Positions 325 to 6,383 of a DNA stretch of 64,000 bases are shown here, in pieces. Made by a program: the position numbers and the translations under genes. The stretch covers positions 374,501 through 438,500 of the forward strand of contig NZ_JADCLL010000001.1 of NCBI RefSeq assembly GCF_015070375.1, written 5' to 3'. A model generated the notes under the pieces. That model had not been told where the DNA came from. It saw nothing but the letters and a program-made list of their open reading frames with translations, and made no database searches. Numbering within the stretch: the first letter of the stretch is position 1; every line of letters starts with the position of its first letter. Origin of the DNA: Nocardioides kribbensis. GTDB taxonomy: Bacteria > Actinomycetota > Actinomycetes > Propionibacteriales > Nocardioidaceae.

Positions 325-1878
<1,554 letters not shown>

Positions 1879-2070
1879 CGGACCTCCTGGCTGGTCGCCC
1901 GGCGGCACGCCGGGCGGACGAGTCTCCTGGACCCTCCTGGACGGGGAGTGACGCGGGCCACTCTAGTGAGACCAGGTTGCCTCGCCGCTGGCCCGACGCG
2001 CCGGGCGCGACGAGCGGTCGCTCCCCCGCGCCCGGTGGTCGTGCCGGCAGCAGGGCGCCGGGGTGGTGAG

Positions 2071-2109
2071 GATGAGAACCCTCTCATCGCGGTCTCACGC
2101 CCGACCCAC
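2071..2109 (+). promoter_or_regulatory. Candidate response-regulator operator A (inverted repeat plus 11-bp-phased CTCAY boxes)
   Basis: GATGAG (2071-2076), six bases, then CTCATC (2083-2088) make a perfect inverted repeat. From the second arm, boxes CTCAT (2083), CTCAC (2094) and CCCAC (2105) recur every 11 bp. A -10-like CAGGAT follows at 2117-2122, so the array overlaps the -35 region of the gene starting at 2133. Direct repeats with about 11-bp phasing are the known binding mode of OmpR/PhoB-type regulators, and one is encoded in this operon. The same layout occurs at 6345-6383. Binding itself is inferred. Confidence 0.65.
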
Positions 2110-2132
2110 GATGAGGCAGGATCGTCCTCGTC

Positions 2133-2561
2133 ATGAACATCGTGTGGAAGGTCGTCGTCGCCCTGGCGCTGCTGCTGCCCGTGGGCGGCTACGTCGCGGG
2201 CTCCCTGGCCGCCAACTCCAGTGACGGCCCGGCTCCCCGCGACCCGGTCGTGATCTCCCCGGCGGCCTCGCCCGACACCGACCCCGCCCGCGCCGCCGGC
2301 GACGACCGCGGCGGAGAGCGGTCCGACGACGAGCGCTCCGACGACCGGTCGGACGACCGCGACGACGACTCCGACGAGCGCGGGGACGACTCCGGTGGCG
2401 TCGACGTGGTCGCGCCACGACCCGGCGAGGTCGACGACGACAGCGGCCCCGGCAGCGGTGACGACGGGGACGACGACGGGGACGACGACACCGATGACGG
2501 CGGGGACGACGGGGACGACGGGGACGACGGGGACGACGACGGCGGGGATGACGACGACTGA
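2133..2561 (+). CDS. Small membrane-anchored or secreted Asp-rich protein
   Basis: A 142-aa protein of no recognised family. Residues 5-27 are a hydrophobic segment (VWKVVVALALLLPVGGYVAG) with a Lys before it, so it is exported or anchored with the rest outside. From about residue 55 it is dominated by Asp with Gly, Ser and Arg, and the last 40 residues are nearly all Asp and Gly, encoded by perfect 9-bp repeats. Such polyacidic tails can bind Ca2+ or other cations, but nothing here proves that. It is the first gene of a three-gene operon with a sensor kinase and response regulator; its stop overlaps the kinase start by 14 bases, implying coupled translation. Its promoter carries operator A. 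A role as ligand, cofactor or target of the kinase is an inference from position. Confidence 0.75.
   Translation: MNIVWKVVVALALLLPVGGYVAGSLAANSSDGPAPRDPVVISPAASPDTDPARAAGDDRGGERSDDERSDDRSDDRDDDSDERGDDSGGVDVVAPRPGEVDDDSGPGSGDDGDDDGDDDTDDGGDDGDDGDDGDDDGGDDDD
2502..2537 (+). repeat. Four perfect tandem copies of GGGGACGAC inside the Asp-rich gene
   Basis: Copies lie at 2502, 2511, 2520 and 2529. Each 9-bp unit encodes Gly-Asp-Asp, so gain or loss of units changes the length of the acidic tail without shifting the frame. Confidence 0.9.
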
Positions 2562-4176
2562 CGCGCCCCGCACCGCGACCGACGCCCGACCACGCCGGTC
2601 GGGCGTCTCGGTGCGGGTGCGCATCACCGCCACCGTGGCCCTGCTCGTCGCGCTCGCGCTGACGGGCGCCGGCTTCATCGTCTACGCCATCGAGAGCCAG
2701 CGCCTCGACCGGCAGTCGGCCGAGGAGGTCGACCAGGAGCTCGACGAGTTCGCCCGGCTCGTCGCCGACGGCCGCGACCCCGAGACCGGTGAGGCCTTCC
2801 CCGCGATCCGCCCGCTCATCGACCTCTTCATGGGCCGCAACGTCCCCGACGACGACGAGCTGCTGGTGGGCTGGATCGGCGACGGCCCCAAGGTGAGCTT
2901 CCCCGAGGACGACCTGGTCTACGACCCCGGCTTCCGCGCGGCCACCGCTCCCCTGGTCACCGGCGGCGGGTCGACCACCCTCGACACCGCGCAGGGCGAG
3001 GTGCTCATCGCCTCCCAGCCGATCACGCTGGCCGGCTCCGACGCGGTGGCCCCCGACGCCAGCGGGCCCTCGACCGGCGCCCTGGTCGTCGTGGTCTACC
3101 TCGACGAGGACCGCGCCGAGCTGCTCGACACCATGCGCACCTACGGCATCGTGGCGCTGCTGTCGCTGCTCGCGGTCATCGCCTTCGCCTTCTGGCAGTC
3201 GGGCCGGCTGCTGGCGCCGTTGCGCACCCTGCGGCTGACCGCCGAGGAGATCGGCGACACCGACCTGTCGCGGCGCGTGCCCGTGCGCGGCAACGACGAC
3301 ATCACCGCGCTCACCCTCACCGTCAACGGCATGCTCGACCGGCTCGAGGACTCCTTCGCCGGCCAGCGACGCTTCCTCGACGACGCCGGCCACGAGCTCA
3401 AGACGCCGCTCACCGTGCTCCGCGGCCACCTCGAGCTCCTCGACGTCGGCTCCCGCGAGGACGTCGAGGAGACCAAGGGCCTGCTGCTCGACGAGGTCGA
3501 CCGCATGGCGCGCCTCGTCGGGGAGCTCATCCTGCTGGCCAAGAGCGACCGGCCCGACTTCGTCACCACCGGCCCGGTCCAGCTCGGCCGGCTCACCGAG
3601 GACCTGCTGTCCAAGGCCAGTGCCCTCGGTGAGCGTGCCTGGCGCCTCGACGCCGCGGCCGAGGTCGAGGTCGACCTCGACGAGCAGCGCGTCACCCAGG
3701 CGGTGCTCCAGCTGGCCGACAACGCGGTCAAGCACACCCGCCCGGGCGCGGAGGTCGCGCTGGGCTCGTCGTACGACGGGCGCGACGTGCGGCTGTGGGT
3801 GCGCGACACCGGGCCCGGCGTGCCCGCCGGCGACCGCGAGCTGGTCTTCACCCGCTTCGGGCGCAGCGCCGTGCCCGAGGGCGACGAGGGCTTCGGGCTG
3901 GGCCTGTCGATCGTGGCCGCCATCGCGGAGGGCCACGGCGGACGCGTCGAGCTCGACGACGCCGAGCCGCACGGCGCGCGCTTCACCCTCGTGCTGCCCT
4001 CGCGCTCCCACGGCGCACCCGACGTCACCGCCACCCGGACGCTGCCCGCCCTGCGGGCCGTGACCGGGCCCGACGGCACCACCCGCACCACCACCGTCAC
4101 CAGCACCAGCACCAGCACCGACACCGACACGCGGCCCGTGAGGGCCCTCCAGGAGGACTCGTGGCCCGCATCCTGA
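2548..4176 (+). CDS. Membrane sensor histidine kinase (HAMP-HisKA-HATPase)
   Basis: A 542-aa two-component sensor. After an Arg-rich N-terminus come a transmembrane helix (about residues 24-45), an acidic extracytoplasmic domain of about 145 residues, a second helix (about 193-212, TYGIVALLSLLAVIAFAF), a HAMP linker, the dimerisation/phosphoacceptor helix with His282 in DDAGHELKTPL, then the ATPase domain with N box LADNAVKHT, G1 box DTGPGVP and G2 box GFGLGLSIV. The tail after about residue 490 is Thr/Ser-rich low complexity. The frame is open further upstream, but that stretch is only the alternate reading of the Asp repeats; ATG 2548 overlaps the previous stop in a coupled arrangement. It overlaps the response regulator by 16 bases, so the two are cognate partners. 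The ligand is unknown. Confidence 0.92.
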   Translation: MTTTDAPRTATDARPRRSGVSVRVRITATVALLVALALTGAGFIVYAIESQRLDRQSAEEVDQELDEFARLVADGRDPETGEAFPAIRPLIDLFMGRNVPDDDELLVGWIGDGPKVSFPEDDLVYDPGFRAATAPLVTGGGSTTLDTAQGEVLIASQPITLAGSDAVAPDASGPSTGALVVVVYLDEDRAELLDTMRTYGIVALLSLLAVIAFAFWQSGRLLAPLRTLRLTAEEIGDTDLSRRVPVRGNDDITALTLTVNGMLDRLEDSFAGQRRFLDDAGHELKTPLTVLRGHLELLDVGSREDVEETKGLLLDEVDRMARLVGELILLAKSDRPDFVTTGPVQLGRLTEDLLSKASALGERAWRLDAAAEVEVDLDEQRVTQAVLQLADNAVKHTRPGAEVALGSSYDGRDVRLWVRDTGPGVPAGDRELVFTRFGRSAVPEGDEGFGLGLSIVAAIAEGHGGRVELDDAEPHGARFTLVLPSRSHGAPDVTATRTLPALRAVTGPDGTTRTTTVTSTSTSTDTDTRPVRALQEDSWPAS

Positions 4177-4838
4177 TCGTCGAGGACGAGGCGCGCATCG
4201 CGTCGTTCGTGGCGAAGGGTCTCAAGGCCGACGGCCACCAGGCGACCGTCGTGGGCGACGGCCCCGGCGGGCTCGACCACGCCCTGAGCGGCGACTACGA
4301 GCTCATGGTGCTCGACATCGGCCTGCCCGGCATGGACGGCTTCGAGGTGCTCGACCAGCTGCGCTCCCAGGGATCGCGGATGCCGGTCATCGTGCTCACC
4401 GCGCGCGACTCGGTGGGCGACACCGTGACCGCGCTGGAGAACGGCGCCGACGACTACATGCCCAAGCCCTTCCGCTTCGCCGAGCTCCAGGCGCGCATCC
4501 GGCTGCGCCTGCGCCAGGCCCCCGGCAACGAGGGCGGCGGGGGCCGCTCGGGCGACGTGGTCGAGGCCGGCGGGGTGGCGCTCGACGTGCGCACGCGCCG
4601 CGCCACCGTCGACGGACGCCAGGTCGACCTCTCGGCGCGTGAGTTCACCCTCGCCGAGATCTTCATGCTCAACGCCGGCCAGGTGCTCTCCCGCGAGCAG
4701 CTGCTCGACCACGTGTGGGGCTTCGACTTCGACCCCGGCTCCAACGTGGTCGACGTCTACGTCGGCTACCTGCGCAAGAAGTTCGGCGCCCCGACCATCG
4801 AGACCGTCCGGGGCATGGGCTACCGCTTCGTGCCCTGA
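4161..4838 (+). CDS. OmpR/PhoB-family response regulator, partner of the upstream kinase
   Basis: A 225-aa cytosolic transcription factor. The receiver domain has the acidic pair ED in ILIVEDEA, the phosphoacceptor Asp52 in LMVLDIGLPGMDG, Thr80 in VIVLTARD and Lys102 in YMPKPF. The C-terminal winged helix reads LSAREFTLAEIFMLN, then LSREQLLDHVWGFDFDPGSNVVDVYVGYLRKK and the final GMGYRFVP. GTG 4161 is chosen because AGGAGG lies four bases before it inside the end of the kinase gene. Members of this family bind direct repeats of about 11-bp period; exactly such repeats sit before its own operon and before the convergent 5883-6278 gene. It therefore probably controls both, a testable inference. 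Confidence 0.93.
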   Translation: MARILIVEDEARIASFVAKGLKADGHQATVVGDGPGGLDHALSGDYELMVLDIGLPGMDGFEVLDQLRSQGSRMPVIVLTARDSVGDTVTALENGADDYMPKPFRFAELQARIRLRLRQAPGNEGGGGRSGDVVEAGGVALDVRTRRATVDGRQVDLSAREFTLAEIFMLNAGQVLSREQLLDHVWGFDFDPGSNVVDVYVGYLRKKFGAPTIETVRGMGYRFVP

Positions 4839-4862
4839 GCCCGCCCGTCCCCACGACGAGAA

Positions 4863-4902
4863 CCGCGGCGGGGGGCCCGGGGACAGGGGCCTCCCGCCGC
4901 GG
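4863..4902. terminator. GC-rich hairpin between convergent operons
   Basis: CCGCGGCGGG (4863-4872) pairs perfectly with CCCGCCGCGG (4893-4902), with a further GGCCC/GGGCC inner stem. It has no U-tract, which is common in actinobacteria. It sits between the response regulator and the convergent kinase gene and could serve both strands. Confidence 0.55.
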
Positions 4903-4970
4903 CGCGGTGGAGGGGGGACTGGCGGAGGATCGTGCGGAGCGTGGTGCGGACGGGGCGGGTACGCCGCGTC

Positions 4971-5849
4971 TCAGCGCACCTTCCAGCCCGCGAGCCGGGC
5001 CCGCGGCTGGGCGGCGAGCACCGGCTCGAGGGCCTCGGCCACCTCGTGTGGCAGCGGACGGTCCTCGGGCCGCTTCTCGAGACCGGCGTAGACGATCTTG
5101 GCCACGTCGGCGGGCACGGCGTCGGGGAGCCGGTAAGGGTCCTGGGACACCTGCGGGTAGCGCACCCGCACGTCGTCGGAGGTCAGGTCGCCGTCGTCGA
5201 AGGCGCGGTAGCCCGCCACCGCCTCGAAGAGGGTCGCGGCCAGCCCCCAGACGTCGCTGGCGTGTCCGGGGGTGCCGGTGCGGGGCGGGTCGGCCTGCTC
5301 GGGGGCGAGGTAGGCGTCGGTGCCGATGACGTGGTCGAGGGTCTCGGCCGCGGCCAGCGGGCGCGCCACCGAGAGGTCGATCAGGCGCGCGGGTGCGCCC
5401 ATGATGATGTTGCTCGGCTTCACGTCGAGGTGGGTCCAGCCGAGGTGGCGCAGGTAGTGCAGCGCCGAGGCGACCTCGATGCCGAGCGGCAGGTACTGCT
5501 GCGGCTGGAGCGGGCCGTAGCGGCGTACGAGCGAGGACAGGCGGGGCCCGTCGAGGTGCTCGAGCACCAGGTGGGGCCGCTCCCCCTCCAGCTCGTGGCG
5601 CAGGCCGCGGACGACGGCGGGGTGGTTGACGACGGCCAGCGCCTCGATCTCACGGCGCAGGCCGCGGATGCTCGAGCGGTCCTCGACCTTGGCCGGCCGG
5701 ACGATCTTCACCACCACCGGGGCGTAGGTGATCTCGTCGAAGGCCAGGTAGGCCTCGTAGGACGACCCGCCCCCGAGCAGCCGCATCGCGGTCAGCTCGC
5801 GGGTGATCGGGTCGCCCTCGCCCAGGCCCCAGGTGCTCGGCTTGCTCAT
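4971..5849 (-). CDS. Soluble Ser/Thr protein kinase (Hanks-type)
   Basis: A 292-aa protein that is almost only a kinase domain, with no membrane helix or sensor domain. Visible elements: Gly-rich loop LLGGGSSYEAY (25-34), VVVKI with Lys48, the helix-C Glu in LRREIEA, the catalytic loop THLDVKPSN with Asp142, APEQ, and SDVWGLA in subdomain IX. The Mg-binding DFG is replaced by DLS (Asp158 in LIDLSVA), so Asp is kept but Phe-Gly is not. ATG 5849 has a strong GGAGGGG. It follows the secreted Asp-rich peptide gene by 33 bases on the same strand with no terminator, so the two are probably co-transcribed from the promoter bearing operator B. This would put a Ser/Thr kinase in the same regulon as the two-component pair. 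Substrates are unknown. Confidence 0.88.
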   Translation of the reverse strand: MSKPSTWGLGEGDPITRELTAMRLLGGGSSYEAYLAFDEITYAPVVVKIVRPAKVEDRSSIRGLRREIEALAVVNHPAVVRGLRHELEGERPHLVLEHLDGPRLSSLVRRYGPLQPQQYLPLGIEVASALHYLRHLGWTHLDVKPSNIIMGAPARLIDLSVARPLAAAETLDHVIGTDAYLAPEQADPPRTGTPGHASDVWGLAATLFEAVAGYRAFDDGDLTSDDVRVRYPQVSQDPYRLPDAVPADVAKIVYAGLEKRPEDRPLPHEVAEALEPVLAAQPRARLAGWKVR

Positions 5850-5882
5850 CTCGTCCCCTCCGTCGTCCGCGGGCCCGGACCG

Positions 5883-6278
5883 TCAGCCGCGGGTGTCGTT
5901 GCGCGAGGCGTCGTTGGTCTGGTTGGCGGAGAAGTCGCGGGTGCGGTCGCCGCCGTCGCGCGTGAAGTCCTTGGTCTTGTCGCTGCGCGAGACGTCGCGG
6001 TCGCGGCTGGCCTTGGTGAAGTTGCTGTTGGTGCCGTCGTTGGTCGACTTGCTGGCGCCGGTGTTGGTGCCGCCGGTGTTGTCGCCGTTGGTGTCGTCGT
6101 CGCGGTTGCCCGTGTCGTCGTCATCGTCGTCGTCGACGCTCATCACGACGTCGGCGGTGTCCTCGTCACGCTTGGCGAAGGCGTCGTCGGCGTTGGCGAT
6201 CGGGGCCTGGAACGCCAGCAGACCGCCGGTGAGGGCGGAGGCCAGGGTGAGCGAGCCGATGGTGGCGATCTTCTTCAT
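5883..6278 (-). CDS. Secreted Asp/Asn/Thr-rich small protein
   Basis: A 131-aa protein with a clear Sec signal peptide: MKK, a hydrophobic core (about residues 6-24), and a likely cleavage site after ANA (about residue 29), leaving a mature protein of about 100 residues. The mature part is hydrophilic and disordered-looking, with a run of seven Asp (about 49-56) and repeated short DRT/DFT/NDT motifs, and no Cys. No known family is recognised. ATG 6278 is preferred over an upstream extension because it follows AGAGGAAG and begins the signal peptide. Its promoter contains operator B, the twin of the operator before the Asp-rich protein/kinase/regulator operon. The shared acidic composition and shared operator suggest a common function, possibly cation binding at the cell surface (inference). 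Confidence 0.8.
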   Translation of the reverse strand: MKKIATIGSLTLASALTGGLLAFQAPIANADDAFAKRDEDTADVVMSVDDDDDDDTGNRDDDTNGDNTGGTNTGASKSTNDGTNSNFTKASRDRDVSRSDKTKDFTRDGGDRTRDFSANQTNDASRNDTRG

Positions 6279-6344
6279 GGTGCTTCCTCTCGTGGGTCCG
6301 CCGGATGGTCCGGCGGGTGATGAGGAAGACTCTGACGGCCGGGG

Positions 6345-6383
6345 GTGAGGCCGCCATGAGCCTCGGATGAGGGCACTCTCATC
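6345..6383 (-). promoter_or_regulatory. Candidate response-regulator operator B, twin of operator A
   Basis: Read on the minus strand: GATGAG (6383-6378), six bases, CTCATC (6371-6366), giving the same inverted repeat and spacer length as operator A. CTCAT boxes begin at 6371 and 6360 and CTCAC at 6349, exact 11-bp steps. A -10-like CAGAGT lies at 6334-6329, leaving a leader of about 45 bases before ATG 6278. The match in motif, order, spacing and orientation between two operons 4 kb apart is hard to attribute to chance. Confidence 0.65.

Follow-up and report, generated by a model that had tools for sequence, protein, structure and literature searches.

A 64,000-nucleotide stretch of the Nocardioides kribbensis genome (contig NZ_JADCLL010000001.1, positions 374,501 to 438,500 of the forward strand; hereafter the window) contained, between positions 2071 and 6383, two converging operons. 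The plus-strand operon encoded an Asp-rich protein (dpA), a sensor histidine kinase (HK) and an OmpR/PhoB-type response regulator, and the minus-strand operon encoded an Asp-rich exported protein (dpB) and a Ser/Thr kinase (STK1). Sequence comparison indicated that both operons are very probably regulated by the co-encoded regulator. One sensor-regulator pair with a recurring operator appears, across many soil actinobacteria, to switch on exported proteins of acidic or Ser/Thr-rich repeats together with kinases for which these repeats may be substrates. The fuller reading was given an even chance: an envelope regulon that is autoregulated and yields exported polyanions, some of which would be phosphorylated by a partner kinase.

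The twin operators of the original prediction were present at the outer promoters of the converging operons (Table 1). The boxes had been described as CTCAY in 11-bp steps, which was correct for all but one; the third plus-strand box was CCCAC, which is also the consensus of 65 A sites. The window held 2 operator matches at up to 1 mismatch versus 0.12 expected by chance. GATGAG-N6-CTCATC occurred at exactly 2 sites in the 4.12-Mb genome, both at the outer promoters of the module, with an expectation of about 0.05 (from the base composition of the window) and 0 sites for the reversed control. Of 76 non-redundant regulator loci of Nocardioides, the window included, 75 were scored for operator A and 65 of these matched it with no more than 2 mismatches; operator B was matched to the same degree in 69 of the 76. 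The consensus was GATGAGAG-N2-CTCTCATC, followed 11 bp on by CTCAY and after another 11 bp by CCCAC (A) or CTCAC (B). At the sites with up to 2 mismatches, an xAnnnT hexamer lay at one fixed offset (65/65 A sites and 61/69 B sites), and at this distance the -35 region falls under boxes 2 and 3, as is usual for activation by OmpR/PhoB-type regulators. The spacing from the operator to the -10-like element would fit class II activation by regulators of the OmpR type. Conservation of the inverted first arm equalled that of the direct repeats, and simple tandem binding does not explain this arm. Operators complete on both strands were seen at G125:C9:21282-21319 and G431:C1:808290-808327, where a single site could drive divergent genes.

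A dpA-type open reading frame began 38-68 nucleotides past the first base of the operator match at all 37 loci examined, including six (L093-L098) with a weak match of 3-4 mismatches. The chosen dpA start was 58-60 nucleotides from the match start, equal to 5-7 nucleotides past the hexamer, in 23 of the 37; in several other loci, the automatic start was an in-frame start a few codons further upstream. The dpA transcript is probably leaderless because only 7 nucleotides separate the -10-like hexamer from the ATG.

The operator was found, at up to 1 mismatch, in 134/134 Nocardioides genomes with a regulator ortholog versus 5/62 without (n=196), and the pattern read backwards gave 2 matches across the 196 genomes. 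Among the regulator-negative, operator-positive genomes, G173 (70% complete) had a facing operator pair 3.9 kb apart and in G176 a distance of 155 bp separated two sites. A count over 296 genomes of the class, with a regulator cut-off of E 1e-60 that may let in paralogs, gave 64 with both regulator and operator, 23 with the regulator only, 16 with the operator only and 193 with neither; outside the own genus, the corresponding counts were 53, 23, 16 and 189. A tandem pair of regulator genes, each of 64% identity, was observed at G151:C42:49958-51655. The operator and the gene set, searched for in the genome and its relatives as originally proposed, were conserved and co-occurred with the regulator. 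The claim that the regulator governs both operons was strongly supported by the operator pair, the gene set, the promoter geometry and the co-occurrence.

A third perfect operator site of this genome was located before an operon encoding ArgP (a 47-amino-acid Arg-rich peptide), an MsbA-like ABC exporter and STK2, a second HLD/DLS kinase. The module had been thought to be closed, and this operon, together with further operator-bearing targets in relatives, contradicted that. A genome scan at up to 3 mismatches returned 21 operator matches versus 2 for the control. Seventeen of the 21 had 3 mismatches; the surroundings were read for one of these, the third site read backwards, and the lone 2-mismatch match was operator A read in reverse. 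The ABC exporter (at least 64% identity) was found in 27 of the 196 Nocardioides genomes, and the regulator was present in all 27. The exporter operon had the operator at up to 1 mismatch in 24/27 and with 2 and 3 mismatches in two others, and the one in which no operator was seen was a short locus. The hexamer stood at the same distance as in A and B in 26/26 third operons with a site (up to 3 mismatches). ArgP was recognised in 23 of the 27 exporter operons, with a tail mostly of RSRS-type repeats and of TRTRTR in two (L275, L276). The R-[ST]-R count in the ArgP set was 69, compared with a mean of 44 and a maximum of 64 in 2000 shuffles, in a test that wrongly took in three non-ArgP peptides (L256, L257, L269). 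Among 21 distant-site loci from a 59-genome sample that included the own genome, 7 contained the ArgP operon, 7 an exported CSGS protein (one distant), 2 an exported CRGTI protein and 1 another Asp-rich protein, and 4 were something else or unclear. A small exported protein of the CSGS..DWKIKAGPDDGR type was a recurrent target (L235, L236, L239, L241, L243, L244), and that of L236 had no Pfam match. Exporters of a more distant group (45-48% identity) were encoded in four regulator-negative genomes (G021, G022, G112, G167), and G012 and G133 had one as a second copy; no operator was seen at loci L278-L280 of this group.

Judged from operator matches, the module is not closed and the regulon extends to other families. 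In an outside sample of 29 loci (L150-L178; 60-65% identity to the regulator; L165 itself filed as Nocardioides), the operator was matched at up to 2 mismatches in 16. Fourteen of these were followed downstream, L155 and L166 being left out. The first exported or membrane protein was Asp-rich in seven (L150, L151, L152, L161, L162, L165, L172), Ser- or Ser/Thr-repeat-rich in six (L154, L156, L159, L160, L164, L175) and a CRG protein in one (L163). Similar gene sets were present in 20 further stretches from other families, which were picked for carrying a site and are not a sample. In the other families, an exported protein with Ser/Thr-Pro-Ala type repeats adjoined an APH-type kinase; PF01636 was above cut-off in 3/3 scanned proteins, with matches in further loci. 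An exported CRG(T/A)IG... repeat protein lay behind the same operator in several families (L234, L240, L163, L325, L327), and no Pfam match was obtained for the L163 protein. The operator also stood ahead of glycosyltransferase genes (PF04101) in L249 and L338, which represent two genera, and in L249 it was additionally followed by PF00534 and an ABC exporter.

STK1 matched Pkinase PF00069 with 110.6 bits and had the catalytic residues. In all 61 STK1 sequences, the window included, HLD replaced HRD, and the catalytic Lys, Glu, Asp and Asn and the metal Asp were kept. The replacement of DFG by DLS, noted originally for the window, was kept in 58 of the 61, and DFS was found in the other 3. A conserved core was common to the dpB proteins, which in most loci also had a tail built from (S/T)-(R/K/N)-D units. 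A convergent site was present at 69 loci; a dpB-type protein was encoded in all 61 of these with STK1 and in none of the 8 without. The eight encoded His/Asp-rich (3), Asp-rich (2), CSGS (2) or other (1) proteins instead, and two of them were short, reaching 2.3 kb (L119) and 3.4 kb (L114) past the regulator start. Seven loci with no convergent site were left out (L098, L100, L117, L120, L126, L132, L139); all except L098 and L117 ended less than 1.5 kb from the regulator start. The core criterion (Lys/Arg-acid, then an Asp run) was applied by eye first and then as a regular expression made post hoc. Counts of the tail motif [ST][RKN][DNH] touched between the groups, with a minimum of 1 in STK1-positive and a maximum of 1 in STK1-negative loci, so that the 61 versus 0 split rests on the dpB core. 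A genome-wide search found no STK1 ortholog in G004 (locus L065; 85% complete), G040 (L082), G046 (L067) and G057 (L098), which were regulator-positive with no dpB at the locus; the best kinase identity there was 38% at most versus 80-100% for STK1 orthologs. The kinase travels with dpB and not with the two-component pair, since STK1 was missing where dpB was missing while the regulator and HK were kept. From this linkage, STK1 looks tied to the exported protein of the same operon, not to HK and the regulator, and the originally proposed link between the His-kinase pathway and the Ser/Thr kinase is not the most economical one. Action of the partner kinase on the exported Ser/Thr tail is suggested tentatively, at somewhat less than an even chance.

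The remaining features are listed in Table 1. The signal peptide of dpB and the membrane segment of dpA were assigned by eye, and neither protein had a Pfam or NCBIfam match up to E 0.1. The hairpin between the operons folded with -50.6 kcal/mol (z -5.2; window positions 4850-4915). The start of the neighbouring AMP-binding ligase gene was about 70 bases or less from the operator in L072, so this gene may be co-regulated.

Table 1. Features of the two converging operons and their surroundings (positions in the window)
Feature	Position	Strand	Description
AMP-binding ligase gene	325..1908	-	Divergent from operator A; position kept in 32/36 relatives
Operator A	2071..2109	+	GATGAG-N6-CTCATC-N5-CTCAC-N6-CCCAC; boxes in 11-bp steps; elements starting at 2071 (GATGAG), 2083 (CTCATC), 2094 (CTCAC) and 2105 (CCCAC)
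-10-like hexamer GATCGT	2120..2125	+	7 nucleotides before the dpA ATG
dpA	2133..2561	+	142 amino acids; single N-terminal membrane segment and Asp-rich tail
HK	2548..4176	+	HisKA/HATPase; extracytoplasmic PAS/sCACHE-like sensor; conserved RNVPDDDE motif
Response regulator	4161..4838	+	OmpR/PhoB-type; GTG start; Response_reg and Trans_reg_C
Terminator-like hairpin	4863..4902		GC-rich; between the converging operons
STK1	4971..5849	-	Ser/Thr kinase; HLD...N and DLS motifs; no membrane segment seen
dpB	5883..6278	-	131 amino acids; Sec-type signal peptide; KRDED...VDDDDDDDT core; (S/T)-R-D-rich tail
-10-like hexamer CAGAGT	6329..6334	-	After operator B
Operator B	6344..6383	-	GATGAG-N6-CTCATC-N5-CTCATG-N5-CTCACC; boxes starting at 6383 (GATGAG), 6371 (CTCATC), 6360 (CTCATG) and 6349 (CTCACC)

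Pfam analysis bore out the predicted gene identities, with HisKA/HATPase in the kinase, Response_reg (PF00072, 89 bits) and Trans_reg_C (PF00486, 90.1 bits) both above cut-off in the OmpR/PhoB-type regulator, and Pkinase in STK1. The best NCBIfam hits of the regulator and HK were of the CztR/CopR heavy-metal type. These stayed below cut-off (TIGR01387, 204.7 of 279.2 bits, for the regulator; 173 of 292.55 bits for the kinase), and unlike those systems the five module genes included no metal-resistance gene. CseB (176.9 of 350 bits) and MtrA (165.6 of 300 bits) also missed their cut-offs. Like CutRS/CssRS of Streptomyces secretion stress, the pair described here is an actinobacterial HK-regulator pair that would govern exported proteins. 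However, the CutR site is TAWATAAA, which differs from the present operator, and a cell wall amidase and HtrA-type proteases are among the CutR targets (PMC12802291). In the OmpR/PhoB family, M. tuberculosis PhoP offers an example of direct repeats of 11-bp period, made up of 7-bp motifs with a 4-bp spacer (PMC4832192). The receiver, winged helix and 11-bp period appear to be shared with that family, whereas the first arm of the operator here is inverted and conserved (GATGAGAG..CTCTCATC) and the targets are charged low-complexity exported proteins. STK1 was not assigned to the PknB/PASTA kinases (115.2 bits for NF033483 versus a cut-off of 450; PASTA domains not matched) or to the anti-phage kinases PD-T4-6 and MAD6 (best PADLOC score 139.8 bits, no cut-off given; MAD6 100.4 of 460; context not fitting). 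The predicted fold of the HK sensor region was PAS/sCACHE-like, with a mean predicted local distance difference test score of 91.5. Its sole PDB match below E 0.001 was a WalK-YycH model (E 4.9e-5), followed by the B. subtilis domain 4zr7 (E 0.005) and by the KinD sensor and CitA (E 0.02-0.03). Residues R83, N84, V85 and E90 at the RNVPDDDE motif were nearly invariant in 35 sequences.

From the operator, its geometry, its co-occurrence with the regulator and the linkage of kinase and exported-protein genes, we infer binding, activation, phosphorylation, a signal and an envelope role as follows. HK would detect an external signal, probably aided by the co-encoded dpA and its Asp-rich tail. The phosphorylated regulator would bind the GATGAG..CTCATC/CTCAY array. 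Acting from a class II position, it would activate the operon that encodes it, which would amount to positive feedback, along with the dpB-STK1 and ArgP-ABC exporter-STK2 operons. The output would be exported, highly charged, low-complexity proteins, and a role in cation or charge control is plausible. STK1 would most likely phosphorylate the Ser/Thr repeats of dpB before export, giving a stronger polyanionic tail, and STK2 would probably act likewise on the RSRSRS tail of ArgP. Several observations weigh against this scheme. Operator A had at least 3 mismatches in 10/75 loci, the operator was not found at up to 2 mismatches in 13 of the 29 outside loci, and 23 of the 87 regulator-positive genomes of the class had none at 1 mismatch. 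The co-occurrence is partly circular because two sites lie within the regulator's own locus; the distant targets escape this circularity. No kinase was seen by eye among the listed neighbours of the Ser/Thr-rich exported proteins of L153 and L154, and the kinase of L334 adjoined a protein equally rich in Asp/Glu and Ser/Thr. The Sec-like signal on dpB means that phosphorylation would have to precede export, and joint loss of dpB and STK1 from their shared operon could follow from any common function.

The kinases might instead be ordinary signalling enzymes acting on the regulator, HK or other cytoplasmic proteins, with their neighbours merely co-regulated. Cross-talk of Ser/Thr kinases with response regulators is known in actinobacteria, and the residues of STK1 suggest an active kinase; however, STK1 was missing where dpB was missing although the regulator and HK remained, and this explanation is considered unlikely. 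It is somewhat more unlikely that the Ser/Thr tails are O-glycosylated or serve as plain wall-spanning linkers, with adjoining kinases acting on small molecules or sugars. Many tails outside Nocardioidaceae are rich in Ala, Pro, Ser and Thr and are accompanied by a kinase of the APH family, which consists mostly of small-molecule kinases, and the glycosyltransferase genes after the operator in L249 and L338 point the same way. In most Nocardioides loci, however, the tail is of the (S/T)-R/K/N-D type, unlike usual O-mannosylation sites, and the partner has a protein-kinase fold. A polycation with an MsbA-like exporter and polyanions under one operator could also form a charge-based antimicrobial or protection set, in which ArgP would be exported as a cationic antimicrobial and cationic peptides would be trapped by the Asp-rich proteins. 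This appears improbable, as the ArgP exporter was present in just 27/196 genomes compared with the acidic dpA in 37/37 regulator loci. Occupation of the operator by another transcription factor is very improbable, given that the operator tracks this regulator across genomes and the 11-bp direct repeats suit OmpR-type binding.

The regulon of exported polyanions would resemble, by analogy, the secreted phosphoproteins of eukaryotes, such as casein-type proteins with their partner kinase Fam20C, in that S/T-x-acidic repeats and a dedicated kinase would likewise yield an exported polyanion. A literature search, with subscription papers mostly outside its coverage, found no description of this gene set and no bacterial case of a secreted phosphoprotein with a partner kinase in this layout. 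A wider proposal is a class-wide polyanion system in which charge is encoded as Asp repeats or written by kinases on Ser/Thr repeats, with two kinase families (Ser/Thr kinases in Nocardioidaceae, APH-type kinases elsewhere) in the same slot and the same logic for the Arg-Ser polycation; this is regarded as doubtful. The present results recast a local oddity as a regulon whose readable operator occurs in many families of the class. Its targets can thus be catalogued in other genomes of actinobacteria, and several exported proteins with no Pfam match gain a context. They also enable a direct test of whether bacteria phosphorylate dedicated exported proteins prior to secretion. If true, the class-wide polyanion system would represent the bacterial equivalent of secreted phosphoproteins.

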